DNA from: Siphonodentalium dalli
Taxonomy: Eukaryota; Mollusca; Scaphopoda; Gadilida; Siphonodentaliidae
Length of the DNA stretch: 64,000 bases
Direction: 5' to 3'
NCBI GenBank assembly: GCA_032622095.1
Contig: CP136063.1
Span: 15,727,814 to 15,791,813 of the forward strand
Shown here piece after piece: positions 27,582 through 63,008 of the stretch. The position numbers and the translations under genes are program-made. Every line of letters begins with the position of its first letter. Position 1 is the stretch's first letter. The notes below the pieces were generated by a model, which searched no databases, was not told where the DNA came from, and saw nothing but the letters and a program-made list of their open reading frames with translations.

Positions 27582-27731
27582 GACAAATGAGGATCCACAC
27601 GAGAGAGACGTCATTTAAGTGATATTTGCAGTGTCAGAAGGGATACAGTAAAAGAGTTTAATATCTGACTGCAACATTAGAGGGACCAGATGGGAGATAT
27701 TTGTCTTATTTGTTAGAGAGAATTCGCCCAA
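27582..27731 (+). pseudogene. Decayed C2H2 finger(s) upstream of the intact fingers
   Basis: The nucleotides closely resemble the start of the downstream ORF (ATCCACACGAGAGAGACGTC, then a broken Cys-x2-Cys segment and CAGAAGGGATACAGTAAAAG). The frame is interrupted by stops and indels. This suggests the zinc-finger gene was once longer at its 5' side. Confidence 0.65.
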
Positions 27732-30152: not shown

Positions 30153-30637
30153 AGACACGGTTGGCCTTGGCGGTGGGTATCCTGTGAAAATATCTCCACC
30201 CGTCAAAAACCGCCACAAACAGAAAGAACATCAAAATGTAAATAGACTTTGTCCGTATACAAATAAGCAAAATCGCATAAACAGTATGTTATGTTTGACC
30301 ATTGTTATCTAAACAAAAGCATAAAAGTTACTTTCTGGTGTTTGTTTATATTATGATGGTAAACATAAAGAGCGTTATTTGTTGGTGAATACCTGATATG
30401 GAACTAATAAAGAGCGTTTATGCCATTTGTGTTTGATTAGCCAGTAGCATTGTGCTGTCTTCTGTAAAACAATCAGGCTCTTGCTTAGGATAAAATATAG
30501 TAGGTCTGTATGATAACATGCTGTTTACGCGATGGTCATGGTATATATTAACGGAACTGTATGCGTTTTAATGTTTTTCTGTTTACGGTGTTTGGAACAA
30601 ATATGAATATTTTCGACAATTAAGGCCGCACGTGCCT
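30153..30637. mobile_element. TTAA-target element 'AGGCACG', 485 bp
   Basis: Starts AGACACGGTTGGCCTTGG, ends TTAAGGCCGCACGTGCCT, and is flanked by TTAA at 30149-30152 and 30638-30641. The interior is nearly the same as 61443-61935 in direct orientation. It sits inside the sequence ATTACGC-TTAA-GTGTAATT, so its target was the TTAA at the centre of a CGCTTAAG-type palindrome. Confidence 0.85.
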
Positions 30638-30672
30638 TTAAGTGTAATTGGGTTCATCAGCTATCTCACCTC

Positions 30673-31024
30673 TATGGGAGGAAGCCAAATTAACATTTAA
30701 TAAATAATTGAGCTAAAGCCCCCCCCCCCCCCCCCAATCAAGGAATCTCTAATTACACTTAAGTGCATAAGAATATTTCTTATCGCGCTTAAACGCAATG
30801 AGAATATTCCTTATTGCGCTTAGAGATTCCTTATTGCGCTTAAGTGCAATATGATATTCCTTTTTGTGCTTAAGTGCAATAAGATATTCCCTATTTTGCT
30901 ACGCGCAATTAGATATTTCCTTATTGAACTTAATCGCAATTATATCTTCCCTTATTATATCGCTTAAGCTCAATTATATCGCTTAAGCTCTATTATTTAT
31001 TAAATGTTAATTTGGCTCCCCATA
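30673..31024. mobile_element. CTTAAG-rich foldback element, 352 bp
   Basis: Ends TATGGGAGGAAGCCAAATT and AATTTGGCTCCCCATA; arms continue AACATTTAATAAATAA/TTATTTATTAAATGTT. ACCTC direct repeats lie at the ends (30668-30672 and 31026-31030). Between the arms are many GCGCTTAAGTGCAATA-like palindromes and a poly-C run near 30720-30736. Confidence 0.75.
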
Positions 31025-31314
31025 TACCTCATGTGTATTGGTATAACCTGATGTAGGTTACTGGCATTAGTAATGCGGTTGCATCCATTTCAGCGTGAGG
31101 GGAGTTCAATGAGAGTGTATATGAATTACGTTTAAGTGTACTTCATTTACGCTTAAGCGCGGAACTCATTTACACTTAAGAATAATTAAAATGAATAATG
31201 CTTAATAAATACCTATTTGAACTCCAACTGATTTCCTCTGTCTGAATAATTGAGTCCATCTCATCCGATGTTTGATTGATGTCTTATTGCCAGAGTAAAT
31301 TTGAGTTTAGAGGG
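31025..31314. other. No gene; scattered CTTAAG words
   Basis: TTTACGCTTAAGCGCGGA and related words continue at lower density. Probably part of an outer, older member of the same foldback family. Confidence 0.5.
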
Positions 31315-31320
31315 AATCGC

Positions 31321-32348
31321 ATGGGAGACAGCCTTTTCAAATATATTATTTATTAGTGTAAATCAATTGCGCTCAAGCGCAAAAAATATGTGTCTAATAA
31401 TATATTTGCGCTTTAGCATAAAATTGCCATAAATGTGATCTATTTTATGGGAGGCCCTTTTCACATTTATTATTTATTTACGCTTAAGCGAAAATAACCT
31501 CTATCATTTGCACTTGAGCGCAAATAAAAATCAATATGCATTGATCCCCCCTGAATTAAATTTACATGGCACAGGCCTAAACACATCACTAAAGTTGATA
31601 TAGCCCCACCATATGAAGGAAACAATCCCCCAGAAACCCCAAGATCTGTTTTATGACCATGGAATGGAAATGATATAGATCTGTGTAGGATATGTCTCTT
31701 TTATAAAATATACTATATCTCTGGGATGGAGACACAAATTCTTGGGGACAGGGATGCTGATATTATGAAAATAGGGGTTTTTCCCCTACTTCAAGTCAAT
31801 GAGCACACCATATGAGAGAAGCAAACCCCAGTAACCCCTAATTCCCTATTTATGGCCATGGAAATGGTATATATCTGTGCAGGAGATAATAAAATATACT
31901 CGCTCTGGGAGTGAGGCACCAATTCTTGGGACACCAGGGACAGAGATGCTGATATGCATATGGATTTCTTTTTTCAACTTTCCAGTCTACGGGGCTACTA
32001 CCGGTACTATATATATGGGCCCATGATCATATAATATGAGATGGACTCAATCATTCACATCAGAGGGATGTAAGGGAGTGTTAGGTATTTGCGCTTAAGC
32101 GCAAATAAATTGATAGACACATATTTGCGCTTAAGCGCAAATGATTAACGCTTAAGCACAAATATTTGCGCTTAAGCGCAAATAAATAATAAATGTGAAA
32201 AGGGCCTCCCATACTATTTCCGCTAAAGCGCATATGATTTGGATTTAAGTATAAATGATTTGCTCTTAAGTGCAAATGATTTACACTTAAGCGTAAATGA
32301 TTTGCGATTAAGCAGAATCAGAATAAATGTGAAAACGGCTTCTCGTAT
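31321..32348. mobile_element. CTTAAG foldback element, outer copy
   Basis: The left end ATGGGAGACAGCCTTTTCA and right end GTGAAAACGGCTTCTCGTAT are flanked by the perfect 6-bp repeat AATCGC (31315-31320, 32349-32354). Its arms consist of TTTGCGCTTAAGCGCAAA palindromes in various states of decay. It is interrupted by a younger copy of its own family at 31446-32213. Confidence 0.75.
31446..32213. mobile_element. CTTAAG foldback element, inner copy, 768 bp
   Basis: Ends TATGGGAGGCCCTTTTCAC and GTGAAAAGGGCCTCCCATA, with perfect 6-bp target repeats CTATTT (31440-31445, 32214-32219). The arms are runs of the palindrome TTTGCGCTTAAGCGCAAA. The centre (about 31550-32040) is a non-palindromic interior with an internal direct repeat (CCCCAGAAACCCCAAGATCT-like and CCCCAGTAACCCC-like halves). 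No coding frame. Confidence 0.85.
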
Positions 32349-32680
32349 AATCGCTTAAGCATAATTCATTTACGATTAAGTGTAATTAATCTATCAATGA
32401 AAATGAATTACCAGTGAGCTTAAGCGTAAATCAATTACGCTTAAGCGTAAATCAATTACGCTTAAGCACACTTAAATCAATTACGCTTAACACACTAGTC
32501 ATAATTATATTACTCATAGGAGTAATTCTTTATCTACATCATACGGTTAAGCGTTAGTGAATTACGCTGTATATGTGTGCATTACACCTGAGGCTGAGTG
32601 TAATACATTACGCTTACGTGTAATTCACTTATGCTAAAGTGCAATTAGCTAATACATGTGAAAAAGGCCTTCCATTATAG
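32349..32680. repeat. Further CTTAAG palindromes and a third element end
   Basis: AATCAATTACGCTTAAGCGT recurs here, and GTGAAAAAGGCCTTCCATTA near 32660-32680 looks like a right terminus of the same family. Its left partner may lie near 30060-30145, where AGCTAATTACAC occurs, which would make it the outermost layer of nesting. Confidence 0.6.
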
Positions 32681-43586: not shown

Positions 43587-45059
43587 TCATTTATTGAGTG
43601 ATGGCCATCCGACCTCCTGTAATACCGTGTTGTCCGAAGCAGAACGCGTTATACAACTGCCTATCCGTCCAGCGTGGACATGAAGCCAGTCAAGCTTCTC
43701 TAACATATAATTTGAGGCATTGTCCCAGACGGCGTCTGAATAATCAAATAAGGGTAAAATATATGTGTTGTACATAATTTCAATGGTTTTCCGGTTGAGT
43801 TGATATTTAATCCGTCGGAGTTGAGACAGACGTGAGGCAATTCTTTTGACAGACCTTCCAATGTGTGCGTTCCATTTGAGATTTGATTGGAGTTCCAGAC
43901 CTAAGTGTATATGCCTGTCCACGAAGTTGATTGAATTTCCTAAGAAATTGAGGTTTGGTTTCACTGTTGAGGGCGCAACTAATGAAAAGGACATGCCAAC
44001 TGTTTTAGTTGGGTTGAAACTGACCAACCAGTTTTGGGACCACGCTGTAATATTGTCTAAATCGCCGTTCATAGTATGTTCAAGTATATTAATATCAAAG
44101 TGACTGTTCGTGAGGCAAGTATCGTCGGCATACATTCTCGTTATTGATTCAATTCCGTCGGCTAAATCATTTATATAGACTAAGAACAAAAATGGCCCCA
44201 GGATTGACCCTTGTGGAACTCCCGCTGGGATGACCTCGTATTTTGAAAATGTGTCATTGATTAGGACCCTCTGCGTCCGCTTTTCTAGGTAGTTTCCTAT
44301 CCTATTTAAAATATTTCCTTCTAATCCATAAGCATTTAATTTGTGTATCAGTCCCCTGTGCCAAACCCTCTCAAAGGCTTTGGAAATATCACAGAATATA
44401 GAATATGTAAGTAGTCCTTTGTCAAGGGATTGGCACAGGTTGTGATATAGGTCTAATAGTTGGTATGTTGTACTATGACCTGTGAGAAATCCTGACTGAT
44501 GGAAGAATAAAAGTTCATTTTCAATGAAAAATTTACTAATCTGTTTCAAAACCACTTTCTCAAAAACTTTAGCCACACATGGTAGAAGGGAAATTGGTCG
44601 GTAATTTTTGGCTTCCGCTGGATCATCTTTTTTGAAAATCGGGATCACGTTTGCTGCTTTCCAGGACTCTGGGAATTTCTCTGAGTTGATAGATTTCCTG
44701 AATAGAAGGACGAGTGTGTGAGCTATTGATTTTGCTGTTTCCCTGAGCATTCTAACACTAATTCCATCATGGCCATGGGCTTTGTTAAGTTTAAAAGATT
44801 TGATGGTTGATTCAACCTCTGATTCTGTGAAAACCAAATATGGCATGGTTTTTGCGGTGCGCTTCGGAAAATGAGGCAAGTTATGATTGGTATCATTAAT
44901 CGTAGAATTTGCAATAAAGCTTTCGTTTAGAATTTTTGCTTTGTCGACATTATCAATTGCATATGTCTTACTGTTGGCAGTTATAGTGCCGAAAGAATTG
45001 TATAGTGGGGGATGTTTTTTGCTCGTTTCTTGTTTAGTAGGTAATGTATTATTCTCCAA
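43587..45059 (-). CDS. LINE C: reverse transcriptase
   Basis: A 490-codon frame with the full RT core: LNKAHGHDGISVRMLRE, FPESWKAANVIPIFKKDD, KNYRPISLLPCVAKVFEKVV, QSGFLTGHSTTYQLLDL, IFCDISKAFERVWHRGLI, AGVPQGSILGPFLFLVYIND, the catalytic RMYADDTCLT box, and then FNPTKTVGMSF. No disabling change is visible in the catalytic blocks. The frame is closed by a TGA after SLNK that looks like a CGA-to-TGA transition, because the same frame continues open to about 43440. This is the best preserved retrotransposon in the window. Confidence 0.9.
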   Translation of the reverse strand: MENNTLPTKQETSKKHPPLYNSFGTITANSKTYAIDNVDKAKILNESFIANSTINDTNHNLPHFPKRTAKTMPYLVFTESEVESTIKSFKLNKAHGHDGISVRMLRETAKSIAHTLVLLFRKSINSEKFPESWKAANVIPIFKKDDPAEAKNYRPISLLPCVAKVFEKVVLKQISKFFIENELLFFHQSGFLTGHSTTYQLLDLYHNLCQSLDKGLLTYSIFCDISKAFERVWHRGLIHKLNAYGLEGNILNRIGNYLEKRTQRVLINDTFSKYEVIPAGVPQGSILGPFLFLVYINDLADGIESITRMYADDTCLTNSHFDINILEHTMNGDLDNITAWSQNWLVSFNPTKTVGMSFSLVAPSTVKPNLNFLGNSINFVDRHIHLGLELQSNLKWNAHIGRSVKRIASRLSQLRRIKYQLNRKTIEIMYNTYILPLFDYSDAVWDNASNYMLEKLDWLHVHAGRIGSCITRSASDNTVLQEVGWPSLNK

Positions 45060-45358
45060 AAGTCTCGTGGGTTAGATGCTTCTCTTATTCGTTCTTCAAT
45101 ATGTTCTTCAAATTTGATTTTCGCGTGCTTCTTCATGTTATTGACTTTGTTCCTTATGTTTTTATATTTTCTCCAGACTTGAGGGTTATTTGCCTTCATG
45201 GCCTTTTTCCTTACTCTGTCGCGTTTTCGTATCTCAAACCGGATGTCCGAATTGAACCAAAGTTTGTCGGATGTTCTTACTGTAATGCATGATTGCGGAA
45301 TTGTTTTCGCCATTATGGACAGGAATTCTAGTTGAAAGTTATTGGCAGCTGTGTTCAC
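44981..45358 (-). CDS. LINE C: endonuclease-RT linker
   Basis: A 125-codon basic segment rich in Lys/Arg (IRKRDRVRKKAMK, NIRNKVNNMKKHAKIKFEE, DFWRIIHYLLNKKRAKNIP) corresponding to the linker between endonuclease and RT in CR1/L2/Jockey-type LINEs. It overlaps the preceding frame by 4 nt and the RT frame by 79 nt. Because the overlaps are in different frames, one-base indels (an A6 run lies in the second overlap) are the likely cause. Confidence 0.8.
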   Translation of the reverse strand: MNTAANNFQLEFLSIMAKTIPQSCITVRTSDKLWFNSDIRFEIRKRDRVRKKAMKANNPQVWRKYKNIRNKVNNMKKHAKIKFEEHIEERIREASNPRDFWRIIHYLLNKKRAKNIPHYTILSAL

Positions 45359-46368
45359 ATCAGGTGCACTTTTATGAGGTCATCCCAGTCGACATGGGCA
45401 AGTAGATTGTTTGCACGGGAAAAATTACCTTTTCTGTAGTTCCATACTTGTCTAGGAAATGACGCTGCGGTAGTATTTTGAAATGATATTGTGGCATATA
45501 CACCTAGGTGGTCCGAAACTCCAAGATTTAGGACATCGGAGTATATTAAACGGAGTGAGCTTGATGTCAAAATTGGGTCAAGCAATGTACTTGAGGTGCT
45601 GGTCACTCTAGTTGGGACTTTTATAGCATTTTTCATGCTGAAACCATCCGTTATCTGTTTTAGCTTCGATGAATTATCCATGAAATTCGAGTTAAAATCC
45701 CCTGTAATGACTACATATTCGGAAATATCAAGAGCGTCAGAAATTGAGGATTCCAGGAGTCCCCAATAATTTTGGGTACAAAATTGATCAGATCTGTACG
45801 ATAATCCAAGAACAATGCGAGTTTTCTTTGAGTGGATTTCGAACCAGAGACAAGAAGAATCGAATTCCAATTCAGGTTTACGATTAAATATTAAGTGGTC
45901 GGCGAACATTACGCATATTCCGCCACCCTTTGAATCACGGTCTTTGCGAATGGGGGTACAATATCCATCGATTTCTAGTTGGCTAGAAGGGTAAGATGGG
46001 TCAAGATGTGTTTCGGTGAAACATAGAATGTCAAATTCGTTTATAAAATCTGCAATTTTTTCAAGTTTATTTCGGATACTCCTTACGTTATAGTGAAAAA
46101 TTGAGATCGAATTATCAGCGTTAGTCTGTGACAGAGGACCCGGGTTTATATGGATATCGCCTGATAATTGTAATAGAAAGAATGTAATGAGCAAAATCGA
46201 CCTTGCGTTTGGTGGAGTAAAGCATTTTCCGAGGCGAAGGCTGCTGTTTTTTACAGTTTTAGTTGCTAACGGTCGTTTTGCTGAGTCAAATATACCTATT
46301 GCTGCCCTATATTGACTCAGGTCACACGTCATTTCAGACGGTGGTTCGAAACCAAGATAGGGACGCAA
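45355..46368 (-). CDS. LINE C: 2A-like motif and APE-like endonuclease
   Basis: A 337-codon frame. Near residues 58-78 a hydrophobic stretch leads into SGDIHINPGP (46135-46164), matching the consensus of 2A-like ribosome-skipping peptides (D-x-E-x-N-P-G-P) except for His where Glu is usual. An APE-type endonuclease follows: HYNVRSIRNKLEKI, ILCFTETHLD, KGGGICVMF, VITGDFNSNF, TSSTLLDPILTS and VSDHLGVYA. Together these give the metal-binding and catalytic blocks N, E, GDFN, D and SDH. The reading continues after a frameshift into the frame at 44981-45358. The start codon is uncertain. Confidence 0.85.
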   Translation of the reverse strand: MRPYLGFEPPSEMTCDLSQYRAAIGIFDSAKRPLATKTVKNSSLRLGKCFTPPNARSILLITFFLLQLSGDIHINPGPLSQTNADNSISIFHYNVRSIRNKLEKIADFINEFDILCFTETHLDPSYPSSQLEIDGYCTPIRKDRDSKGGGICVMFADHLIFNRKPELEFDSSCLWFEIHSKKTRIVLGLSYRSDQFCTQNYWGLLESSISDALDISEYVVITGDFNSNFMDNSSKLKQITDGFSMKNAIKVPTRVTSTSSTLLDPILTSSSLRLIYSDVLNLGVSDHLGVYATISFQNTTAASFPRQVWNYRKGNFSRANNLLAHVDWDDLIKVHLM

Positions 46369-47333
46369 ATGGACTCCGACTCAATGAGCAATACAACTAG
46401 TGGCACCTCACAAATGGACTTGACTGTTCTTACATTCTGGATGACTGGAAACATGAATGAAGTAAATGAGTAATCAAACATTATCAATGCATAGAAAATT
46501 GAAAACATGATGTAGACATTGGGATATATACAAATATATACATGCTGATTTTGGGTGGTGATTGGCATGAGGGGAGGGCTTCGGCTATTAACGGGTAGCT
46601 GTGTTTAACAAATTATGGATTTGCGCTTGGGCTTGGTTGTTAGCATGGGATTTTCGTAGGGTTAATCTGAAATAAGTGAGAAAATAGTGCAGTCTCATTG
46701 TTGAGGATAAAACAATGGGAAACTGGGATTTTTGTCGGTACGGCTTGCGGTAATAACATGCGTACGGGTGATTCTACGGTAACTGAGCAATTTGAGTATC
46801 CCGGTACATCAGAAATACAAACTTCGTTCTGTGGTGTATGATAGGGCACATTATGTGTAGTTAGTCAGAAATATTCGAGAAATGTGGTTGGTAAAAATTA
46901 TTTGCTGATTATTTTCTCATTTTGTCTGTTTTAAACCGTTAGTGTAAACCAGAAACGTCGTTACACTAACGCACGTTATCATCATTCCAAGCAGGCACCA
47001 CATTTATAGTTACGAAGATATGGCCATTTATTATGGTTATTCGCGTTCCTTGGCAACTTCGCAATTTTCGGAGTGCCGGGGAGGTTCTAGTTCTGAAAAT
47101 AAAAGCTTCATCTGAATTTTCGAGGCACAAACATGTGTATTTTTTCGCCCATTCTTGGGAACACTTCTTGAATATTCTCGGACGTAACCACTTTCATGGG
47201 GAATAATGATTCATATTATATTAAGCACCCACGAAGAATAAATCGATGGAATGGGAGATTCATTGTGTTATATCTTTGGGATAGCTCAGCTGATAATCCG
47301 TAGCGTTAGTGTAATGACGATTTTGTTAGTGTA

Positions 47334-48898
47334 ATGACGCACAGAAAAGCTTCCACTGTTCACGGAGTAACTGGTGGTGCTGAAATAGCTGAGATGTGGC
47401 AGGATCATTTTCAAAACATTATGTGTTATCAACCGACACCCAATAATAATCAAGACTCGTATAACAGCTACGCAATTGAAGGTTTCATAAATGGTAAACT
47501 AGTGTTCTTCTCAGAAAGTGATGTTCAGGCAGTATTGGGTACTTTACAAATGAGAAAAGCGGGAGGCCCTGATGGCATTACACCGGAACGTTTAAAGTTT
47601 TGTGATAGAGCTATTTAGAAACACTTAGTGGTGATCTTCAATGCGATGATAAAACAAGGACATCTCCCAGAAAAAATGCTTGAAGTGACAATCGTACCAG
47701 TGGTGAAGGATAAGTCCAAAAATATCTCTGACCGAGACAATTATCGACCAATCGCACTTTCCTGTGTATTTTCTAAAATACCCGTGAAACTAATATATAA
47801 TTACTGCTCTGATCAATTAGTAACGGTCGACAACCAATTTGGATTTAAGCCAAAATATTCTACGGACATGTGCATTTTTTCACTAAAAGAATGTATTAGG
47901 TATTACAACTCAAAGAATACACCAGTGTTCGTTTGCTTCATGGACGCCAGCAAGGCTTTTGATCGGGTCGACCACAAAGTGCTGTTTGAAACTCTTGCTC
48001 GGCGAGGTGTTCCTGATACATCCATCAAACTTCTCTCAATTTGGTTTGATAAGCAGCTGTTTCAAATTCGTTGGGGAGATGCCATTTCTTCCTCATTCCA
48101 TCCAACAAGTGGTGTCAGACAAGGGAGTTTACTAAGTCCATCTCTATTCAACGTGTACCTGGACGAGCTAAGTCATAAACTCAATAAGACAAACATTGGT
48201 TGTATGATTGTTCCCAAACTCGTGAATCATCTGGCATATGCAGACGACTTGTGTCTTATATCACCTTCAATTTCTGGAATGCGTCAGCTCTTAGACATAT
48301 GTGCTTGTGAAGCTGACAGGCTCAACCTGATATCTAATCCAACAAAGACGGTAGCCATGACCTTCATTCCAAGAAGTTTACCTATAAGTACTTTCCCCAA
48401 ACTGTTCCTTGGTGAGAAAGAACTCAGATTTGTGGATTCGATTAAATATCTGGGGCATGTCATTAACAACGATTTATCTGACGATGGTGATATTGAACGT
48501 CAATATCGGGCAGTTTGTTTGAGAGTGAACACTTTAATGGGGAGATTTTCTAAATGCTCACAGCAGGTGATATCGTTCCTCTTCCAACGATACATCACCC
48601 CACTATATTGCTCTCATATGTGGGTGTTATTCCAAAGAAAAACTTTAAATAAACTGAAATTATGCTGCAATAACGCGTATAGACTGTGTATGGGTTATGA
48701 TAGAAGATGTAGTGCGAGTGGAATGTTTGTTTCTGACTGTGTGATGACACACACTTGATATGCTAAGGAGAAAGTTTGTGTTTGGTTTCTGGGAACGTGT
48801 GAATGAATCCAACAATTATATACTATCTGCAATTGCTAATTCAGATATTATATACACATCTAATGTATATAACCATTGGCGAAATTTATTGTATATGT
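47334..48898 (+). pseudogene. LINE B, 3' half: reverse transcriptase
   Basis: Continuation of the element begun at 41385. RT blocks: MRKAGGPDGITPERLKF, RDNYRPIALSCVFSKI, NQFGFKPKYSTDMCIF, VCFMDASKAFDRVDHKVLFE, SGVRQGSLLSPSLFNVYLDE, LVNHLAYADDLCLISPS and LNLISNPTKTVAMTFIP. The catalytic YADD is intact. Defects are one in-frame TAG at 47616-47618 and a frameshift near 48752 inside a CACACACA run; in the new frame the C-terminal end (LRRKFVFGFWERVNESNNYI) runs to a stop at 48896-48898. It is nearly full length but split and inactive. Confidence 0.88.
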
Positions 48899-51754: not shown

Positions 51755-52465
51755 ATAATGTCGGTGACCACTAGGAATCACATGCGACTGTGTCCGTGTT
51801 ATTTCAGACAATGGTAGTATAATGGGTGTCAGTCAGCTCTTACATAACCTTTGGAAGTTCCGCCATGTCTGTAAGAGGTGTCAAAATTAATTGTCCACAT
51901 AGCAGCGCCGCAGATTATATTGTTTCACAATTAAGCGGGTCTCGAGCTTCCGATTTATACCTGTACGTAATTTGGAAGGAGGTATAAAATATAGGTTGAC
52001 TTTAATTGATACCGATAATCTATGTACATGCACATGTATCCCGGGAAAATTGGATGCAAATAAAGATCATTAAACCAAAATTGGAAAGGTAACACGAGTA
52101 ACATGGTGGTTGATATAACGGTGTTAGTTTTACTAAAGTTCGAAAATGATATTATTATTACACAATGTTATGTTGATAAATACGCGATATATTTAGTTGC
52201 ACCTGCTCTGAACAAAACATGTGTTTGATGATGTCAGAGATAGCTACGAGCTGTACTCAGTTTTCGCATATAAGTGAAATAAACGCTCTTTATCTCTACC
52301 ATGCAATGACTAGACTATAACTGGGAATTATCTGTGTATGCCGAAGAATGTTCGGGACCCAAACTTTCTTCAATCACAATAATACAACCAGAAAGAAGCC
52401 GTTCATGTATAACGTTTATCGTACTTATCGGCATATGCTGATCCGCGATCATAATTTTACGGAAG
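51755..52465. other. No gene seen
   Basis: Unique AT-rich flank of the large TIR element, with no recognisable features. Confidence 0.5.
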
Positions 52466-53340
52466 CCTATTAGGGCCATTTAATTTTTGTTATATATTCA
52501 TTAAAATATTTCCTTTTTTATTTAATTTTTTATATATATTCATTAAAATATTTCCTTTTTACTTTCTTTTTTTACTTTCCACCTGGGAGGTAACTTTTCT
52601 CCCTGGAAATAACTTATTTCCCAGGGAGAAAACTTTTCTCCCTGAGAAAACTTTTCTCCCTGGAATTAACTTTTCTCCCAGGGAGATAACTTATCTCCCA
52701 GGGAGAAAACTTTTCTCCCGGGAATTAACTTTTCGACCAGGGAGATAACTTTTCTCCCAGGGAGATAACTTATCTCCCAGGGAGTAAACTTTTCTCCCGG
52801 GAATTAACTTTTCTCACAGGGAGATAACTTATCTCCCGGGAATTTACTTTTCTCCCATGGAGATAACTTATCTCCCAGGGAGAAAACTGTTCTCCCTGGA
52901 ATTAACTTATCTCCCAGGGAGATAACGTATCTCCCAGGGAGATAACTTATCTCCCAGGGAGATAACTTATCTCACAGGGAGATAACTTTTCTCCCGGGAA
53001 TTAACTTATCTCCCTGGGAGAAAACCTTTTCCCGGGAATTAACTTTTCTCCCAATGAGATAACTTATCTCCCCGGGAGATAACTTTTCTCCCGGGAATTA
53101 ACTTATCTCCCTCGGAGGAAACTTTTCTCCCGGGAATTAACTTATCTCCCTCGGAGGAAACTTTACTCCCGGGAATTAACTTTTCTCACAGGGAGAAAAC
53201 TTTTCTCACAGGGAGATAACTTATCTCCCAGTGAGAAAACTTTTCTCCCGGGAATTAACTTTTCTCCCATGGGGATAACTTATCTTCCGGGAATTAACTT
53301 TTCTCCCGTGGTGGAAAATCACGTGATGTGATAGGTTTCA
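52466..53340. repeat. Left TIR with TCTCCCAGGGAGA palindrome array
   Basis: A ~120-bp AT-rich tip is followed by about 730 bp in which AACTTATCTCCCAGGGAGAT and variants (CTCCCGGGAATTAACTT) recur every ~15-25 bp. Many units are perfect palindromes around CCCAGGG or CCCGGG. It ends GTGGTGGAAAATCACGTGAT. Dense arrays of this kind are plausible transposase-binding sites. This copy is uninterrupted and thus shows the pre-insertion state of the right TIR. Confidence 0.85.
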
Positions 53341-53509
53341 CGTAACCGATAACATTCAAACATATCCTCCTACGGTTAAAATACACCTGTCACGTGTCAT
53401 TGTCTGATGTCCTGGCGCGAAAAAACATTTTGACAGTCGATATATAACGCGCCAATATTTAGCGCCTGGTGTCACAGGTCCCCTGGTGCGACAACAGTAC
53501 CATAAGTAT

Positions 53510-54095
53510 ATACCTTAATACCTTAAGGTTTATATCTATCAGACCTATATTGAGCATAGACTCACTTGCAATCTAAATTCATCAATATCCTATGTACATA
53601 AGATAATGTCACATCCCCAGTTCTTTTGACCATACTCACACCTTTAATTTGGTGTATCTCTTGCATCGATACGTCTACGATCACCAAAGATATATCTGAA
53701 TGTGTGCACACTTTCAAATCCAGACAAACCCTTGAACAGATTCCCATCAAATATAGCATAGTACTACTGCAGAATTCCACTTGTCACAATGATTCACCAT
53801 GGATGGTCCTGTCTGTGTGACCTCAGCAGAGTAAATGCTGCAGTGCTACTGTGCTATATTTGATGGGAATCTGTTCAGTGGTTTGTCTGATTTTGAAAGT
53901 GTGCACATATTCATATATATCTTTGGCGATATTGCACGTATCGATGTGGGCGATACACCAAATTAAAGGTGCGAATATGGTCTAAATAACTTGGTATGCT
54001 GCATTATATTATACACAGGGGATATTGATGAATTTTTATCGCAAAAGAATCTATGCTCAATATAGGTCGGATAGATATAAACCTTGTATTAAGGT
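53510..54095. repeat. Foldback element of ~585 bp inside the transposon
   Basis: ATACCTTAATACCTTAAGG, TTTATATCTATCAGACCTAT, TTGAGCATAGA, TTCATCAATATCC and CCCATCAAATATAGCA in the left half recur in reverse order and orientation in the right half, with the centre near 53800. Arms of about 280 bp show moderate divergence. The open frames on both strands reflect this symmetry. Confidence 0.8.
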
Positions 54096-54104
54096 ATCCC
54101 AGAT

Positions 54105-54425
54105 AGCACACACACTTTGGGCAACGTTGGGCCAACGTCATTTCTATCGTTGGACCAACGTTGGAATCCAACGTTGGGCCAACTATGGCTGTTGCCGCTG
54201 GCTCGGCGTCGGCTCGACGTCGGATCCCGTCGTCGACTCGACGTCGAGTCGACGCTGGCGCGCCGTCGGGCACCCGACGTTGAAACGACGTCGAACCAAC
54301 GGTGTATTCTACTATTAATACGACGTTGGGCCAACGTTGGCCCAACGGCCCAACGTTGCATTCCAACATTGGCCCAACGATAGAAATGACGTTGGCCCAA
54401 CGTTGGCCCAACGATAGAACGGATC
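54105..54425. repeat. Foldback built of AACGTTGGCCCAACGTT palindromes
   Basis: The left arm contains CAACGTTGGGCCAACGTCAT, TTCTATCGTTGGACCAACG and TTGGAATCCAACGTTGGGCC. The right arm is their complement in reverse order (GGCCCAACGTTGCATTCCAA, CCCAACGATAGAAATGACG). The centre is GC-rich with CGACGTCGAGTCGACG-type palindromes. All frames here are repeat artefacts. Confidence 0.85.
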
Positions 54426-56504
54426 GAAGCTCCATTCGTAGGAGCGATTCCCCTCACATCAGGGCGTCTTTATAACATTAACATCCGCTGAGATACAACA
54501 TACCAATTTATACATACAAAGTTCCACATAATGTTTGCAACTTCAAAGTATTATAATTGGAAATATTATTTAAATTCACAAGTATAAAACTCGAAGAAAA
54601 TGAAACATATAGCACAAAATGTCTGCCGATTTAAATAAAGACAAAATGACATGCTATTAGTTGTTGATTTTAAGAATCTTGACCATCCACTCAGTCTAAA
54701 GAAAATAAAGTTATCGAAAGCGCTACATATTTTTTGTTAGCTCATATATTCCTTTACCATCCAGAAATGTTTATTTCAGCTCAATTCTGCTCATTTTGCG
54801 CTCTCGATAATGTTGGGGACAAAATATTCAAACATTATATGTGGCTTTAAATTTTAGTCAGGTTATATCTTCTTCGAACATCATTATTCTGGAGGATGAT
54901 CTGATGTGGATATGAAAAATTTGAAAGGGCCCAAAGTGCATATGATTAAATTAAACCTAGTAATTGCTCGTTTACTACCAGTAATGTTATATATTTAGAG
55001 GGAACTTCGTGCATGATGATAGAACATGTCACGTCAGAAAGAATATCGCGTTTTTGCATGCCGTTTTCAAAATAGTCCATGATACTGTTCTGAGTATATG
55101 CATTCAATATGCCAATTAATTTTATCTGTAAACATATTATGAAATGAGCAATTACACAACTTATTTGTATCTATGCACATTCGTACCGGTATGACGCTTC
55201 TTGTATATGTTGGGATGATTTATCTGGGAGAAATTAAACTCGTGGATCCATAAAAATTAATTTATGTATAGAAACCCAACATATATCAAATATAATATTT
55301 TCATGATGTGTCATGAACTGGATTCAGTGTTCTCATGGCTCATGCATATATGTATGCAGGACTTTGGCTTGTATGAAGCAACTGTTTCGTATATATAGAT
55401 TGACAATCCTTCTGAAGAAATCATATCCCGAGAGAAAACATTTTATATTCACCTCCTAGAATATCTTAAATTTACCCACCTGCATGGGTTATCGTTATGG
55501 TTAATTACTGATGTAACTGCAACAACAAGAAGAACACACATCCTTTCAATGCCGATTATTGACACACCGATGCATGCCGATTTTTGGCATCTAATTGAAT
55601 GCACAACACAGGACGAGTAAGAATTTCCATCCAAGTGAATAACCATAAGCTGATGAATTTATGTCGTACATGGTGTTCTGTCGGTCGCGTTGATGTCAGG
55701 CGTGCAATACTATTCACAATATAACGATATGCAACACAATATAGACCATGATGGAATACTGGTGCATGTACGTTGCTATCTACATGTCTTACAAGCCGTT
55801 GATGGTTTCGACAGACGAGTAGACATCGATCGAATCCGCTTGTAGTAACATAGCTTATACACAAAATTTCCAGATCCAGAAACAGGATAACATGTAGATT
55901 TTAAGAAGTCCTGAAAGAAACGGAGAATGACGTTACCCCAATGCATAGATTGATGGACTTGAGTATATGTGCTGATAACACCGACGTCGGTTGGTCTCAA
56001 TCAACCAATTGGTCACGGCTCAAACATGCTAACTTGGCCTACCACAGGAGCTTGGAATTTGATCAAAAACCCTCTTTTATTGGCGGGTGGTGTGGACGTC
56101 TCACCCTTGAGCATTTTGAGAAATCCAAGATGGCGTCCAAGATGGCTACCAGATTTCGGTATTTTATTTAATCGGTTAATAACTTTCTCGAATTGAGGTT
56201 TAATATGTCAATTTATGATAGGAATCTTATATAATATGTGGGTCGAACTATATTTCAAATTTCCGATGCTTGATTATAAAGATGGCCGTAAAAATGTCCG
56301 CCAAATACATGAAAATTGTGCAATATTGCAATATATAGATTATTACAATAATTTGTTTTATCAAAAATACAAATACAATCCAAAGAAATGAATACAAGAC
56401 CAAAAGAAACCAATACGTCGTCAGTCCCGCGAATTTTAACAACAAGCGTGTTATTAAATGATACGAATTGACCATAATGCATCCTCTATCTGAAGCATAT
56501 GTTT
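54426..56504. other. No gene; interior of the large element downstream of its coding frames
   Basis: About 2 kb of AT-rich DNA on the 3' side of the minus-strand protein. One end of the CACAGGAGCTTGG MITE family lies at about 56043-56075, and AAGATGGCGTCCAAGATGGC words occur near 56128. No further coding segment is recognisable. Confidence 0.5.
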
Positions 56505-58214
56505 CTAATCAATGTTATTCTCGTTACCATCACAGTGTTTTGTAAACTCGTTAACACAGTTAAGCGCGCCTTGACACGAACAAAATGACGTGCACGTCAA
56601 ACCAGCACGAAAGCACCCACATCTCTTTGACGAGCAAGGCGAATTGCTGGTGCACGAACACCGTATCAGCTTCAGTATGCTATCCGGGGCCTTTGGTATG
56701 TTGTCGGCAACCGTTGTAGGAACGAGTTCGTCGCCATCTTTAGACCAACCAAAATTTGTTGCCTCCATATCCGGCGGAGATTCGTCTGATGCATATCGCC
56801 AAGTAGCAACTTGAAGGTGAGCACGCTTTATATTTTCAATGAAAGCTTCGGTGGTTGGGGGTAACGAGTTCAATTTTGGAGCACACGCCATTGACCGTCC
56901 AACTTTTAACGACCACTTTTGTATTCTTGCTTCTGTTGTGCTCTTACACTTTGGGAGACCATAACACGTCAAAATGAAAGGCAAGACTTCGTCCACTACA
57001 TCATTTATATTTATATGACTATTCCCGAGCATACTCAAAGGGCGGTTTCCACTGCGCAGAGTTTTTAGAGCCGAACACTTCCCAATACCAAAGTATGATG
57101 CAACGGTGTCGCACCCTGTCAATCCGTGCATCGCTAGCAGATCAGGGATAATTTTGCTATGCGTCTGGTAAGTTTTGTTTATGTCGATCGTAGTCCGCCC
57201 TTTAGCTGGGGAAACCATCAGCACACGTCCAGAAATCTCACCCATGTGCACGAAATGCAGAAGCATTATAAATATGTCGGTGTCGTCAGCTAGGATGAGT
57301 GAACATGATGTTGAAATATTTGCTACCTGGTTAATGATGACCGTATCGGCTTCTTCGTGTGTTGACTTGAGTTTAATTCGCCGAACTATCAAACCTTTGT
57401 GTATTTCCAGACGCACTGGATCTTCTCCTGTAATGACCAGTTTGTGTTGAGTTTCCTTCCAATCGTCAGCGTGTTTCTGAAGGTCTTGGCAGATCAGATT
57501 AACAAGCTGTGCTTTGTTATGTGTAACAGTAAGAATAACTTTTTGGGATGGCCGTCGGGTAGTTGTCTTCAGTGTGTGCATCCGACTTGCACCTTGGTCT
57601 CGTCCGATTCGCGTAGAACCCTTCGTGCTACCTGTAATGTATCGATCAAATACAAGGTAGACATCTGTGGTCTTCATGTGGTTACGAATGTACAATCTAA
57701 ACCGATTTAAATAATCCTGAACAGCGCCAGGTGATGGCCAGGGGATGACCCAGAGAATAGCGCAACCATCCAGAAATGTTGCTTCAATCGGCATGCGCTC
57801 TGCAGAATTATCAGGTGTATAATCAACTCTAAGAGCATTCTTCAAGTTGGCTTTTGAATTAGATTCCCTTAGATGACCATCTGGCTCGAACATAGAAGCT
57901 GGATATGGAGCGAGTTCGTGAGACAATATGTCATTAATATCTACACTACGGGAGCTGTCATGCAGGCCCATTGCTCTGGCATATATGATTTCGGGGTCAA
58001 ATATTTTCCCATCGTCTATCTTTATATGCTTGCGGGACTGTGCCATTGTATGCACGTCACGGGATATTTTATTGTGGAATCCGTCTGGCCAACTCTTCTC
58101 AAACTCTTGCATTTGCTTCAAACCCAATGCTCTAGAATTGTCAACATTCACAGTTTTGTCGCTAACTATCTTGCCCGAATCGATATTGATAAGACCATCG
58201 GGTGCTGACTTGGT
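56505..58214 (-). CDS. Large-element protein, second part: XPG/FEN-like nuclease and CXC domain
   Basis: Open from 58214 (just after a TGA) to the stop at 56505. Counting from the GTG at 58151 (548 codons), an XPG/FEN-type (PIN-like) nuclease core is visible: LVFDRY (Asp169), HEEADT (Glu266, Glu267, Asp269), LADDTDIFIMLL (Asp289, Asp290, Asp292) and LTGCDTV..FGIGK (Asp348 with a Gly-Ile-Gly). This order of acidic residues followed by a GCD...GIG helix-hairpin matches FEN1/XPG nucleases. Residues 498-540 form a tesmin/TSO1-like CXC cluster (Cys498, 500, 506, 511, 513, 520, 524, 526, 532, 540), likely zinc and DNA binding. No ATG fits the start, so this is the continuation of the upstream frame after a -1 shift. 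Confidence 0.85.
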   Translation of the reverse strand, partial: TKSAPDGLINIDSGKIVSDKTVNVDNSRALGLKQMQEFEKSWPDGFHNKISRDVHTMAQSRKHIKIDDGKIFDPEIIYARAMGLHDSSRSVDINDILSHELAPYPASMFEPDGHLRESNSKANLKNALRVDYTPDNSAERMPIEATFLDGCAILWVIPWPSPGAVQDYLNRFRLYIRNHMKTTDVYLVFDRYITGSTKGSTRIGRDQGASRMHTLKTTTRRPSQKVILTVTHNKAQLVNLICQDLQKHADDWKETQHKLVITGEDPVRLEIHKGLIVRRIKLKSTHEEADTVIINQVANISTSCSLILADDTDIFIMLLHFVHMGEISGRVLMVSPAKGRTTIDINKTYQTHSKIIPDLLAMHGLTGCDTVASYFGIGKCSALKTLRSGNRPLSMLGNSHININDVVDEVLPFILTCYGLPKCKSTTEARIQKWSLKVGRSMACAPKLNSLPPTTEAFIENIKRAHLQVATWRYASDESPPDMEATNFGWSKDGDELVPTTVADNIPKAPDSILKLIRCSCTSNSPCSSKRCGCFRAGLTCTSFCSCQGALNCVNEFTKHCDGNENNID

Positions 58215-60424
58215 TCAAGGGGATCAATACAAATCTCCAATTTAGCTCGCAAAGCTTCCCTGTCCACAGCATCAAGTTTAATTCTGGACGTCGACTCTTC
58301 CTTGTGGTGTGTGTGAGATTGATTCGCATCACAATTTTGCATTGATTCTAAATCTTTTATCAGACCATTGCATGTGTGTAAGCTGTATGCCCAGGTTTTG
58401 ATGCTCTCTGGCTTTAGTGTTATACCAATTATTCCAGAACGTCCGTGCCCATATCTCATAAATGTAGTTTCGATGGCCATGTCTGTCCAAATTCCATTAC
58501 AAATTCCAGTGTTGTGGTGCATTGTGTGCTCGCCCTTCACGAAGTGTTGGCCGACATTTTCGGGCAATGATTCCATTGAACGTAAATAATACAAGGCATA
58601 TCTGGCATAGTGGATATGACCGGCTGCAAAAAACAATGGAATCATATCACTGACCGAGTCTAGATGTAGTGGCCAATCCGATTCACGCTCAGCACGTATG
58701 TATTTCAACATAAGAAACACTGGTCTCAACAGACAGTCAATCCACAGCTTAGATGTTCTACTTTGAAGTGCCAATCTGTCCAATGTGGTATCTAGGTCAT
58801 GCATGCATTCCATTTCGAATTTGCAAAATACAGGACGCAACACTTCTTCAGCCAACATTCTGAGAGCACGAACATTTTGCGGAAATTTCTTTCCTGTGAG
58901 CATTTTCAATACACCACCGAACTGCACACTGAGGATTTCCACCAAACCACTTTCCGCCATCAACGAACCTATCGAACCACAGTAACTCATCAGAATGTGC
59001 ATGCCCCCGATTCGCAGATACACGTCATTGAACTTGGTAGGATTGTCCCAAGTAGCGTGCAAGGCAACACGATATAACTGTTGGTCTGCAGTGAATATGA
59101 CAAAAGCTTGTCCAGCTGATCGAGATAAAGTTTGAGCTTTTGTCATTGCAGCTAGCATTGTCTGTGAATCTGCTGTTGGTCTGTCTATCAGCGGGAGATA
59201 AACAATATTTGTCTTTAGTCTAGCAGACTGTCCCTGTTCCCGACACAAATTGGTATTGTATCCATTATATTCGGGGCAGTTGTCCTTGTAAATCACATCC
59301 TCAAAGAAAAACAAATCGTTTTCACCTGCCCGCCGCCGCGAAACATCTTGGTGGTGGCTGAATTTACCTGAAACGGTGGATTTGGGAACACTGTTCATTA
59401 CAGGGTCCTTAGTAATTTTGAATTGAGATCCTTCAATTGCTTGTTCATCTATCGTCGTATTTGGAAGGTCATCTTTCTTCAAACGAGGAATTGTCAGATC
59501 ACCAATACTAACATCACAAGCTGCCTGTGTCATTATCATTGCAAGTGAGTGCGTCGACGATTTCCCATTTGGAGAGCTGATATCACAGTCAAAATTATCG
59601 GCTATAATTTGGATCATACCATTGGATGCGTCATTTATTCCTTGTTTCGCTGTATCCAATGATGCTGCCATAGCAGCTGATTTTTTGAATCGACGTAGTT
59701 CGTCGTAACTGCATGTAACACGATACTCATACATATGATTAACAATCAGCTTGGAATCACGTAAAAGCACGCCAAGTGCTACCAGGAGGTCTGTGGCTTG
59801 ATTGAGGACGATTCTTGTGACAATACTGCCAATAAGGAGTGCAGGCAGCGATCTGTCTAACTTTGTTGATATCGCAGCGAGGAAAGTCATCAATGTGCTG
59901 GAAACAGATTCTTCAATGGATATCCTATCAACATGAATATTGTATCCCGATCTGTTGCTGGTAATGTGTTTGCATTCCTCAACCACATGCTTAGCAACTG
60001 TTGTAATATGCGGTTCTAAATCGTCTCCACTTTCTTCCTTTACCAATCTCAAAACATTTGCTGTATTTTGATGGAAAGCTAAGACACTTGCATAACCGAC
60101 AGCAGACAGTGTAAGGATTTCGTCACAAAAGTGACGTTTCAGTTCAGTGATCAACTGTGGCCGTGCCAAAACACACCCGTTGTGGGCTTTATATTCGTTG
60201 TGCAGTTCAACAGAATTCCAAATACGTTTCTTGTTGCTCGCGACTACATTGATGACATGTTGTAAAGCTGTATCCACTGTGTGTTCCGATTCAGTTGGCG
60301 TAAGGCATCTGTTCTGGACAAATTTTGTCATACAATCCTTATGATAACGCGCATCAACTGCATGGAGGTCACGGGCCATTGCTATTGCGAAGCACAACAG
60401 ATAACACGTGGGGACACCTGTCAA
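58166..60424 (-). CDS. Large-element protein, first part: DDE-transposase-like
   Basis: 752 open codons. The first open codon is TTG, so the true start is either the first internal ATG (residue 16) or an upstream exon; ATTGACAG just before could be a splice acceptor. A possible zinc site (His21, His28, Cys31 in DLHAVDARYHKDC) opens the protein. Candidate RNase-H-fold residues are Asp276 (ADNFDCDISSPNGK, followed by THSLAM), Asp447 (TADQQLY), the GGMH motif (residues 473-476) and Glu652 (DMAIETTFMRYGHG). I assign these as a DDE-like triad by pattern and order only. The frame stops at a TAG (58166-58168) while the next frame is already open, leaving a 49-nt overlap. Similar uncharacterised proteins are common in invertebrate genomes, consistent with a mobile-element gene. 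Confidence 0.8.
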   Translation of the reverse strand: MTGVPTCYLLCFAIAMARDLHAVDARYHKDCMTKFVQNRCLTPTESEHTVDTALQHVINVVASNKKRIWNSVELHNEYKAHNGCVLARPQLITELKRHFCDEILTLSAVGYASVLAFHQNTANVLRLVKEESGDDLEPHITTVAKHVVEECKHITSNRSGYNIHVDRISIEESVSSTLMTFLAAISTKLDRSLPALLIGSIVTRIVLNQATDLLVALGVLLRDSKLIVNHMYEYRVTCSYDELRRFKKSAAMAASLDTAKQGINDASNGMIQIIADNFDCDISSPNGKSSTHSLAMIMTQAACDVSIGDLTIPRLKKDDLPNTTIDEQAIEGSQFKITKDPVMNSVPKSTVSGKFSHHQDVSRRRAGENDLFFFEDVIYKDNCPEYNGYNTNLCREQGQSARLKTNIVYLPLIDRPTADSQTMLAAMTKAQTLSRSAGQAFVIFTADQQLYRVALHATWDNPTKFNDVYLRIGGMHILMSYCGSIGSLMAESGLVEILSVQFGGVLKMLTGKKFPQNVRALRMLAEEVLRPVFCKFEMECMHDLDTTLDRLALQSRTSKLWIDCLLRPVFLMLKYIRAERESDWPLHLDSVSDMIPLFFAAGHIHYARYALYYLRSMESLPENVGQHFVKGEHTMHHNTGICNGIWTDMAIETTFMRYGHGRSGIIGITLKPESIKTWAYSLHTCNGLIKDLESMQNCDANQSHTHHKEESTSRIKLDAVDREALRAKLEICIDPLEPSQHPMVLSISIRAR

Positions 60425-61098
60425 TCATCGATGTATTTTTTTTAATCCGTGACGTCATTTTGGGGAAGCTCTTCGCTGAATAGAAATGGTTTTGGCGACA
60501 TTAGCTCCAGACTCTAGATTTCAAATATAGAGTCGACGTTCACCCAGACTGGGTAGTGTTGTCACACCAGGGGACATGTGCCTGGTGTAGCATTCTGTAG
60601 TCGAAGCAGACACCAGACCTGTGCCAGGTCGTAGAAGACATTCAGGAACTGAGGATATGGGTGGAATTTGGAAGAGTCGGAGTGTTTGACTGTTTATAGT
60701 ATTGGACCATGTTATGTTGTTATGAAATCATGATATTTCGCCATTAACTATAAAGTTACCTTCGTATTAAATGCTGCCTATTCCGATTGATTATTTTATA
60801 TTTTTTGTGAATATGTGCCATGGCTGTCGCGGACCCTGGACTCTAGTCTAAAATATACTGACCATCGCTAGTATAGTGGTGGGTCCATTTTGGACTACCG
60901 GTGGTCGTGAAATTCACCAAATCGCTCTAAATTGGACCAATAGCACGTGTTTGTGGCGAAACAATGGGTACATATCATTAAAAGTTCTTTATAATGACAT
61001 GGCGAAACGATTCTATTGAATGCATAAAGTATCCACGGCATCCTTAAACACTCTTTATGACGTGACGCAACATTAAATTAAAATATATAGGCGGACCC
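60425..61098. other. No gene supported; 5' side of the large-element protein
   Basis: Expected position of a promoter or first exon of the minus-strand protein. CACACCAGGGGACATGTG..CCTGGTGTAG (60571-60600) is an inverted match to 53455-53505. I cannot identify a convincing exon or TATA box. Confidence 0.45.
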
Positions 61099-61476
61099 CT
61101 AGATAACATCGAGGTGGTAAAATAATAATCTAGCGTGCATTGCCCTATACCCGAGATCACTGCCTGTGTTATTTAACTCAGATTCTATAGCCGATAGCAC
61201 ATCCATAATGTCATCCTTGAATTTTCTCCGTGTCAGGCCAATCGATTTCAGAATTCTCTTCAAATGTCGCCAACTCATTGTTATGCCATGGTACAAATGA
61301 AGAAAACATAATATTTCGATGTATTCAAATCCAATGATAAAATATCTTTCTATTATCCATTCTCTACTATGGTTCACTGTGTCCAAAGGTATGTATTGTG
61401 GTGGGTGTGCTTCACATATCACTATAAATAACATCAGGAGAACTTTGGCGTGGGTATCCTGTGAAAATATTTCCAC
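61099..61476 (-). pseudogene. Fragment of an integrase-type transposase N-terminus
   Basis: A 125-codon frame. Its middle, EYIEILCFLHLYHGITMSWR, HLKRILKSIGLTRRK, AIESELNN and GSDLGYRAMHARL, matches in form the helix-turn-helix region that precedes an IS3/IS481-like integrase core in some animal transposases (IS3EU-type). The catalytic core is absent: the frame ends shortly after YRAMHARL. Its 5' end overlaps the next repeat by about 30 bp. It is a truncated passenger within the large element, and the family assignment is tentative. Confidence 0.55.
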
Positions 61477-61935
61477 CCGTCAAAAACCGCCACAAACAGA
61501 AAGAACATCAAAATGTAGACAGACTTTGTCCGTATACAAATAAGAAATATCGCATAAACAGTATGTTATTGTCATATATTTGACCATTGTTATGTAAACA
61601 AAAGCATAAAAAGTTACTTTTCTGGTGTTTGTTTATATTATGATGGTAAACATAAAGAGCGTTATTTGTTGGTGAATTCCTGATATGGAACTAATAAAGA
61701 GCGTTTATGTCACTTGTGTGTGATTAGCCAGTAGCATTGTGCTGTCTTCTGTAACACAATCAGGCTCTAGCTTAGGTAAACTATAGCAGGTTTTTTATGA
61801 TAACATGCTGTTTACGCGATGGGCATGGTATATATATATATATATGAACGAAACTGTATGCGTTTTAAATGTTTTTCAGTTTACGGTGTTTGGAACAAAT
61901 ATGAATATTTTCGACAATTAAGGCCTCTCGTGCCT
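61443..61935. mobile_element. TTAA-target element 'AGGCACG', left-truncated
   Basis: Nearly identical to 30153-30637 over GGGTATCCTGTGAAAATAT through TTCGACAATTAAGGCC; the right end CGTGCCT is followed by TTAA (61936-61939). The left TIR (AGGCACG...GGCCTT) is lost. Confidence 0.85.
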
Positions 61936-62085
61936 TTAACACTGGTCATATTTTTAGAGTACCGACACATGCATCCATGATACGAAAGACTTGCGATGAT
62001 AATAACAATGAAAACAGCTGGAATGTCGAGTGTAATCCACACTACACCTGTCACGTGCTGCATGTAAAATCACGTGATTTTCCAC

Positions 62086-63008
62086 CGGTGGAGAAAAGTT
62101 TTCTCCCTGGGAGATAAGTTAATTCCCGGGAGAAAAGTTATCTCCCTGGGAGAAAAGTTAATTCCCGGGCGAAATGTTTTCTCCCAGGGAGATAAGTTAA
62201 TTCCCGGGAGAAAAGTTTTCTCCCTGGGAGATAAGTTATCTTCCTGGGAGAAAAGTTAATTCCCGGGAGAAAAGTTTTCTCCTTGGGAGATAAGTTAATT
62301 CCCGGGAGAAAAGTTATCTCCCAGGCAGGGGGGGGGGGGTCGGAAAAAAATTTCAGGCACGTATGGCATTTTTTCCCTTTCGATCATTTTTTGTACCCAC
62401 CCACCCCCACCGCCAATTTTTTTTCCGTTTTCGGCAGTTTTTTCCGACCATTTTTTGACACCCACCCCCCCTTTTAACACTAAAACAGAGATTTGCGGGG
62501 GGAAATTCAATGTAAACAGCTGTATATGAATTTCTGTGCATACTATTTATCATGGATGTTAACATGGACATGTAAATAGGAATGAGTAATTTTGAGGTCA
62601 TTCGGCCAAAAAAACATGGCTGCCAGCGGCCATCTTGGATTTTAAAATTTGCAACAAAATACAACACGATAACTGCCTGCAGTCAGTTTACCAGTTAGAA
62701 TTACATTATTTCTCTCATTCAAACTGATTCAAAGTGGTTATGAAGCCCAACTCATTGCCAAAACACTAAAAACAAGCAGGAATTTTTTTTTTTAGTTGCG
62801 GAAAAAATTGCTTGTTGGTGGCTTTGACCACCCACCCACCCCGGCATACGTGCCGGAAGAAATTTGTTCACCCCCCCCCCTGTCCCAGGTGGAAAGTATA
62901 AAAAAAAGAAAGTAAAAAGGAAATGTTTTAATGAATATATATAAACAATTAAATAAAAAAGGAAATATTTTAATGAATATATAACACAAATTAAATGGCC
63001 CTAATAGG
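62086..63008. repeat. Right TIR of the large element, interrupted
   Basis: Inverse of 52466-53340: ATCACGTGATTTTCCACCGG, the GGGAGATAAGTTAATTCCC array (62090-62325), then, after a foreign insertion, CCAGGTGGAAAGTAT, two TTTTAATGAATATAT blocks and AAATGGCCCTAATAGG. The palindrome array is shorter here (about 240 bp) than in the left TIR (about 730 bp). Confidence 0.85.
62326..62882. mobile_element. hAT-like non-autonomous element inside the right TIR, 557 bp
   Basis: Starts CAGGGGGGGGGG and ends CCCCCCCCCCTG, with inner inverted words AAATTTC and GGCACGTATG/CATACGTGCC. It is flanked by the perfect direct repeat TCCCAGG (62319-62325, 62883-62889). CAGGGG-type termini with a 7-8-bp duplication fit hAT elements. 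The equivalent place in the left TIR (CACCTGGGAGGTAAC near 52580) is uninterrupted. No transposase. Confidence 0.85.

Follow-up and report, generated by a model that had tools for sequence, protein, structure and literature searches.

Organization of the locus

We analyzed a stretch of 64,000 nucleotides (nt) from the scaphopod mollusc Siphonodentalium dalli (CP136063.1, positions 15,727,814-15,791,813, i.e., C3:15727814-15791813; the whole stretch is called the window here, and positions without a contig name are counted from its first base). The segment of interest spans approx. 10.5 kb, in which palindrome-rich inverted ends enclose a minus-strand coding region with DDE-like and XPG-like parts and a C-terminal Tesmin/TSO1-like CXC domain. 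While a first-pass annotation had read this segment as one Academ-type transposon, comparison with other copies in the host genome indicates that it is very probably a nest of unrelated transposons and not one element; we observed the nesting itself, as well as target duplications in other copies, directly. The segment contains the following features (minus strand where stated; otherwise no strand was assigned):

52458..54097, left-hand part of the outer element (IS3EU-like, non-autonomous), with tip, array, subterminal block and most of the central inverted repeat
52458-52573, left tip of the outer element, beginning TACGGAAGCCTATTAGGG
52585-53308, left palindrome array (TRF)
54098..54800, dispersed repeat reading CCCAGATAGCACAC from the junction, with a ACGTTGGGCC palindromic stretch; its far limit lies somewhere before 56085
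56085..60369, minus strand, Academ-type (AcademX-like) fragment without either tip; left limit from alignment to the L065 end
56505..58214, minus strand, open reading frame (ORF) P0002 with XPG-like motifs and CXC domain, 569 codons stop-to-stop
56556..56660, minus strand, Tesmin/TSO1-like CXC domain (Pfam PF03638, TCR, just below cut-off)
57060..57794, minus strand, XPG-like region, from acidic motifs that by eye resemble those of FEN1
58166..60424, minus strand, ORF P0001 with the DDE-like part (by eye), 752 codons stop-to-stop
60370..60551, final 182 bp of a non-autonomous element 826 bp long, from the ends and flanks of its copies
60552..62330, right-hand part of the outer element, comprising the remainder of the central inverted repeat, an inner region and the palindrome array
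61445..61939, interspersed repeat within the outer element, from sequence comparison
62090-62316, right palindrome array (TRF)
62331..62900, inserted repeat of approx. 570 bp between right array and right tip, with no left-side counterpart
62901..63008, outer element, right tip without its outermost 8 nt (CTTCCGTA)

Two claims of the first-pass annotation about the ends were borne out. The termini are matching and inverted (52466-52573 vs. 62901-63008, 97% complementary over 108 nt), and they are rich in arrayed TCTCCC/GGGAGA palindromes of approx. 20 bp, with TRF scores of up to 801 on the left and 350 on the right, far above chance. The same order of blocks had also been claimed for both ends; this holds for the array followed by the short block GTGGTGGAAAATCACGTGAT (read by eye) and is broken by the approx. 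570 bp present on the right side alone. Aligned flanks of other copies place the true left tip, TACGGAAG, at 52458, 8 nt outside the start first assigned. The window copy retains this left terminal motif alone, the right one being cut, and CTTCCGTA was not found in the 5.7 kb downstream of the right tip. The right tip may have been lost through insertion of a downstream element, for which no partner tip was found within 5.7 kb.

An empty site in other copies of the outer element

The host genome (2.23 Gb in 9 contigs) was searched with the best 40 candidates scored for each query. The 108-bp tip query (40 of 163 candidates scored) listed 46 matches on 8 of the 9 contigs, and 20 loci around tip matches (L009-L028) were fetched and compared with the window. 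Window position 54097 is joined directly to 60552 in 15 of these 20 loci (L009-L020 and L022-L024), and the insert in the window comprises 54098-60551, i.e., 6454 bp; none of the 20 loci contains an insert match of 60 bp or more. Among the remaining five, L021 and L026 are short, L028 is rearranged, and L025 and L027 show one tip in 10 kb.

The empty site mostly reads ...AAGGTATATACTCATGGTAG... / ...TTGTATTAAGGTATATACTCATGGTAGTG...; slight variants occur in L012, L023 and L024. Empty copies keep approx. 8 bp that are lost from the window, where 6454 bp replace ATACTCAT, and the arms of their central inverted repeat pair through the insertion site with one mismatch. Because the arms stay complementary through the site, the empty form was probably first and hence ancestral; a deletion that restored matched arms would be a strange accident.

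Both ends were found in 13 dispersed copies, all with the tips TACGGAAG...CTTCCGTA and with 6 to 43 array-type palindromes each. Target duplications of 6 bp were exact in 11 of the 13 and carried one mismatch in L021 and L023, and no other duplication length from 3 to 9 matched in these copies. Ten of the 13 measure 3.2-4.0 kb (range, 413 bp to 4.8 kb). A miniature copy (L026:1129-1557; 413 bp, or 429 bp with full tips) is reduced to two tips and six array palindromes with hardly anything else, and still has a 6-bp duplication.

Outer elements also occur in tandem. At C7:17691869-17708380 (L009-L010), five units of 3008 to 3499 bp lie head-to-tail, with cores 99.8-100% alike mutually, approx. 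97% identical to most dispersed copies and 94% identical to L015 and L020. A single 6-bp duplication, GGCCTG, encloses the entire array, and all four internal junctions read CTTCCGTAAG. This arrangement fits local amplification after a single insertion as well as the insertion of a multimer. Since the unit cores are near-identical and unit lengths nevertheless vary, the palindrome array changes length easily. A second head-to-tail array (L011, C7:77676483 onward) has at least three units and a different junction.

Two repeats within the outer element of the window occur elsewhere as well. The repeat at 61445-61939 recurs at window positions 30167-30641 (90.5%) and partly, outside palindrome elements, in L016 (72%) and L021 (86%). 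An 89% copy of 528 bp of the 62331-62900 repeat (L021:1141-1635) also lies outside the palindrome element of that locus. Near the 30167-30641 repeat, window positions 30822-32490 hold another short-palindrome array, TTGCGCTTAAGCGCAA.

The coding region and the ends of the Academ-type element

The first-pass annotation had described a single large, near-intact minus-strand protein. A minus-strand coding region does lie between the termini; it consists of two ORFs in different frames, P0001 and P0002, overlapping at 58166-58214. The outermost codons of P0001 (60370-60424) fall in the end of the 826-bp element, and N-terminal sequence present in sister copies is gone, so that a near-intact protein is not supported. 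Within P0002, the XPG-like motifs FLDG, VFDR, THEEAD, ADDTD and LTGCD start at residues 147, 188, 285, 309 and 365. The XPG-like part matched no Pfam or NCBIfam profile, and the DDE-like part of P0001 had no match in Pfam, NCBIfam or PDB, a set without an Academ profile; NCBIfam returned a single row, TIGR03809, at 13 bits (cut-off, 50.15). PDB matches of P0002 to TAL effectors were rejected as an identification, as they sum weak repeat matches in which single stretches give approx. 5 bits or less. A structure model of P0002 made without an alignment had a mean pLDDT of 31.7, too low to be of use.

The tesmin-like CXC domain proposed for the C-terminus is supported by a nine-cysteine pattern and by Pfam TCR scores just under the cut-off of 23.5 bits (18 bits in P0002 and 23.2 bits for the isolated piece). 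The domain was present in all four sister copies read, with a stop in L070 and loss of frame within the domain in L069. No description of a CXC/tesmin domain in Academ was found in the literature searched, with Repbase outside that search; nor did that literature yield anything joining XPG, DNA transposons and target-site duplications (TSDs). A search of viral contigs revealed no relatives.

The query from the XPG-like region of the gene (40 of 77 candidates scored) returned copies that, with two 27-bp rows set aside, were 88-99% identical to that of the window. Two sister copies, selected as those whose initial right-hand reads extended furthest, were read to both ends. One (C3:31717784-31723013, 5230 bp) is flanked by the duplication CAA, and its flanking sequence contains a paralogue of the empty site; the other (C3:18840253-18845455, 5203 bp) is flanked by GTA and carries a short deletion close to the right end. 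In both, terminal inverted repeats (TIRs) start with TAGTCCAGCGG and the duplications are 3 bp long. Past the tips, the inverted repeat matches at 94% across 134 bp. As their 3-bp duplications differ, the two copies represent separate insertions. Among four left ends read, three keep the tip and L068 does not.

The window copy, by comparison, lacks TIRs of its own at both ends. Its homology starts 94 bp in from the left end, and approx. 0.85 kb at its right end is replaced. Its right limit, 60369, was placed from the switch to the 826-bp repeat at 60370, positions 60300-60369 being crossed by no sister-copy read. Ten short sister stretches were read near the expected right end, and the 182-bp end of the 826-bp family occurs in none of them. 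Five (L050, L054, L056, L058 and L059) share sequence that continues where the window diverges, at a distance of approx. 75-80 bp from the window homology; in L050, L056, L058 and L059 its translation includes HCLYCGQEC, and the frame is open throughout in L056 and L058.

Repeats flanking the gene within the insert

On the left of the gene, the query 54098-54800 (40 of 421 candidates scored) gave at least 138 rows on all 9 contigs, 22 of which, including the row of the window itself, reach query base 1. The query began at the junction base itself (54098), and homology to that base thus does not establish the true end of the repeat.

The right-hand flank, in turn, belongs to an 826-bp family with ends CAGTCTGAGTAAAC...GTTCACCCAGACTG. 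For this family, 40 of 1160 candidates were scored and 19 loci were examined (two without both ends found; L038 without a match). Exact 9-bp duplications were present in 16 of the 17 loci with both ends found, representing 13 distinct duplications, with ATATCTGCC shared by L031, L032, L034 and L048. The family resembles the AcademH lineage, for which PMC10045372 gives 9-10 bp duplications; the likeness is one of duplication length alone, and the family was linked to no helicase or transposase here.

Two other interpretations of the insert were tried. GTA/GGTA at the junctions had suggested an AcademX element flanked in the window by a TSD of its own, a reading rejected once the empty site and the ends of the sister copies had been read. 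An XPG element with a 9-bp TSD was rejected because the 182-bp end belongs to the separate 826-bp family, is absent from the ten sister stretches, and the ends of the gene-bearing element itself were found.

Genomic distribution of Academ-type copies

Among the best 40 of 77 candidates for the gene query, 32 (that of the window included) fall on C3:11.1-62.0 Mb, six on C1:264.1-272.5 Mb, and one each at C1:112.9 Mb and C2:14.8 Mb. Likewise, among the best 40 of 631 candidates for the Academ-type left-end query (its own copy among the 40), 31 fall on C3:11.1-65.2 Mb, eight on C1:264.1-272.5 Mb and one at C1:112.9 Mb. The C3 block (approx. 55 Mb) represents approx. 2.5% of the genome. Unlike the Academ-type copies, scored tip copies and scored 826-bp copies are each spread over 8 of the 9 contigs. 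As the scored candidates are those most like the query, this clustering describes the closest subfamily.

It is possible, though on balance doubtful, that an AcademX-like, CXC-bearing subfamily is largely confined to one block, either through local or regional insertion or because the block is young, poorly recombining or introgressed. Regional insertion could perhaps involve the CXC domain or linked re-insertion. At C3:31095489-31101480, C3:13376070-13377563 and C3:31905714-31913971, adjacent AcademX-like gene copies lie in opposite orientation as possible inverted pairs.

Other features of the window

Elsewhere in the window, positions 150-603 hold a short-palindrome array, GGAGTACCAAAAGT.., and ORFs at 43587-46380 (minus strand) and 47619-48758 (plus strand) resemble, by eye, the endonuclease and reverse transcriptase of a non-LTR retrotransposon. 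As judged by eye, an ORF at 27717-28607 (plus strand) encodes several C2H2 zinc fingers in a row.

Discussion

The first-pass annotation had assigned the palindrome-array TIRs to the gene. These TIRs instead belong to a family with 6-bp duplications, TACGG..CCGTA ends and insert-free copies, i.e., to an unrelated foldback family, the outcome that the annotation itself had named as contrary to its reading. No copy combining TIR and protein was seen among the 20 tip loci or the end-read sister copies of the gene. The proposed Academ affiliation suits the gene, with its XPG-like motifs, its CXC domain and the 3-bp duplications of two sister copies, and does not extend to the palindrome element. 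Recent activity of the composite, which had also been suggested, finds no support in view of the loss of both Academ tips and of N-terminal sequence and of the change of frame.

It is very improbable that the segment is a single autonomous Academ element of 10.5 kb bounded by palindrome-array TIRs, from which the 3-4 kb copies arose by internal deletion. In favor of such a reading, one coding region is enclosed by matching termini, and DNA transposons commonly give rise to deletion derivatives. Two sister copies of the gene have termini of their own (TAGTCCAGCGG) with 3-bp duplications, the outer parts of the insert represent two other repeat families, and insert-free copies hold the 8 bp missing from the window, with arms that pair through the site. 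The best matches of the gene and of the tip also differ in chromosomal distribution. For the copies read, a single composite element was thus rejected. Several observations do weigh against the nest of unrelated transposons that we favor. The insert in the window is flanked by no duplication, and the pieces of the mosaic may have arrived in more than one order. L025 and L027 show one tip within 10 kb and the copy in L012 was read short of its other end, so that these loci may hold longer copies. The Academ-type duplications come from two copies, selected by read length as described above, and, with the best 40 candidates scored per query, a rare palindrome-TIR copy with the same gene may exist. 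No autonomous IS3EU partner with palindrome arrays turned up, although no search was aimed at one.

The class of each component was weighed in the same manner. The outer element was linked to no transposase in this analysis, and Dada transposons make 6-7 bp duplications. Membership in another superfamily with 6-bp duplications, such as Dada or hAT6 (the latter so described in PMC12730594), is nonetheless unlikely. PMC12730594 gives TAYGG..CCRTA ends, TIRs >30 bp and 6-bp duplications for IS3EU, and PMC10045372 gives TA..TA termini with duplications of usually 6 bp; the pentamers TACGG..CCGTA and the 108-nt tips of the outer family agree with these features. Terminal pentamers, TIR length and 6-bp duplications together make IS3EU the best fit for the outer element, as a non-autonomous transposon of this type. 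It shares these features with IS3EU/GingerRoot and differs in that no transposase gene was recognized in the compared copies, that arrays of approx. 20-bp palindromes extend its termini, and that it has a long central inverted repeat and forms head-to-tail tandem arrays. In Drosophila, Foldback (FB) elements likewise have extended inverted ends built from short internal repeats, with different termini and duplication length. As for the XPG/CXC gene, no Pfam, NCBIfam or PDB profile assigned its DDE-like or XPG-like parts, and the Academ assignment draws on motifs recognized by eye, duplication length and known family features, which would leave room for another, unnamed superfamily with 3-bp duplications. 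We consider this improbable, as an XPG-type nuclease together with 3-4 bp duplications is the pairing published for AcademX (PMC10045372), and the element, at approx. 5.2 kb, is close in size to curated Academ elements of bivalves (mean, 5565 bp; PMC10294476). Duplications within that range were found in both sister copies with both ends read, and the gene is probably an Academ gene. What sets its family apart from AcademX is the C-terminal Tesmin/TSO1-like CXC domain, while the window copy further differs as a tipless fragment.

Taken together, these data are consistent with the following history. A gene-less IS3EU-type element of approx. 3.5 kb, its termini bearing palindrome arrays and its center an inverted repeat, would have been moved in trans by an IS3EU-like transposase that recognizes TACGG..CCGTA and makes a 6-bp duplication. 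A 6454-bp mosaic (dispersed repeat, tipless Academ-type fragment with the DDE-like/XPG-like/CXC gene, and end of the 826-bp element) would have entered one arm of the central inverted repeat, where 8 bp were lost, and a further repeat of approx. 570 bp would have been placed in the right terminus; the order of these events is our proposal. In an intact Academ-type element, the DDE-like domain would cut and join DNA and the XPG-like domain would process DNA flaps, roles suggested by the family, while the CXC domain may bind DNA.

Overall, the components of this locus are ordinary and their arrangement is nested. The apparent new architecture, palindrome-array TIRs combined with a DDE/XPG/CXC protein, is an artefact of nesting and no longer counts as new, and it illustrates that termini read from a single copy can mislead. 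Two modest leads remain, namely the C-terminal CXC domain in an Academ-type family and the regional clustering of this family; the strong clustering of its best-matching copies makes local transposition testable.

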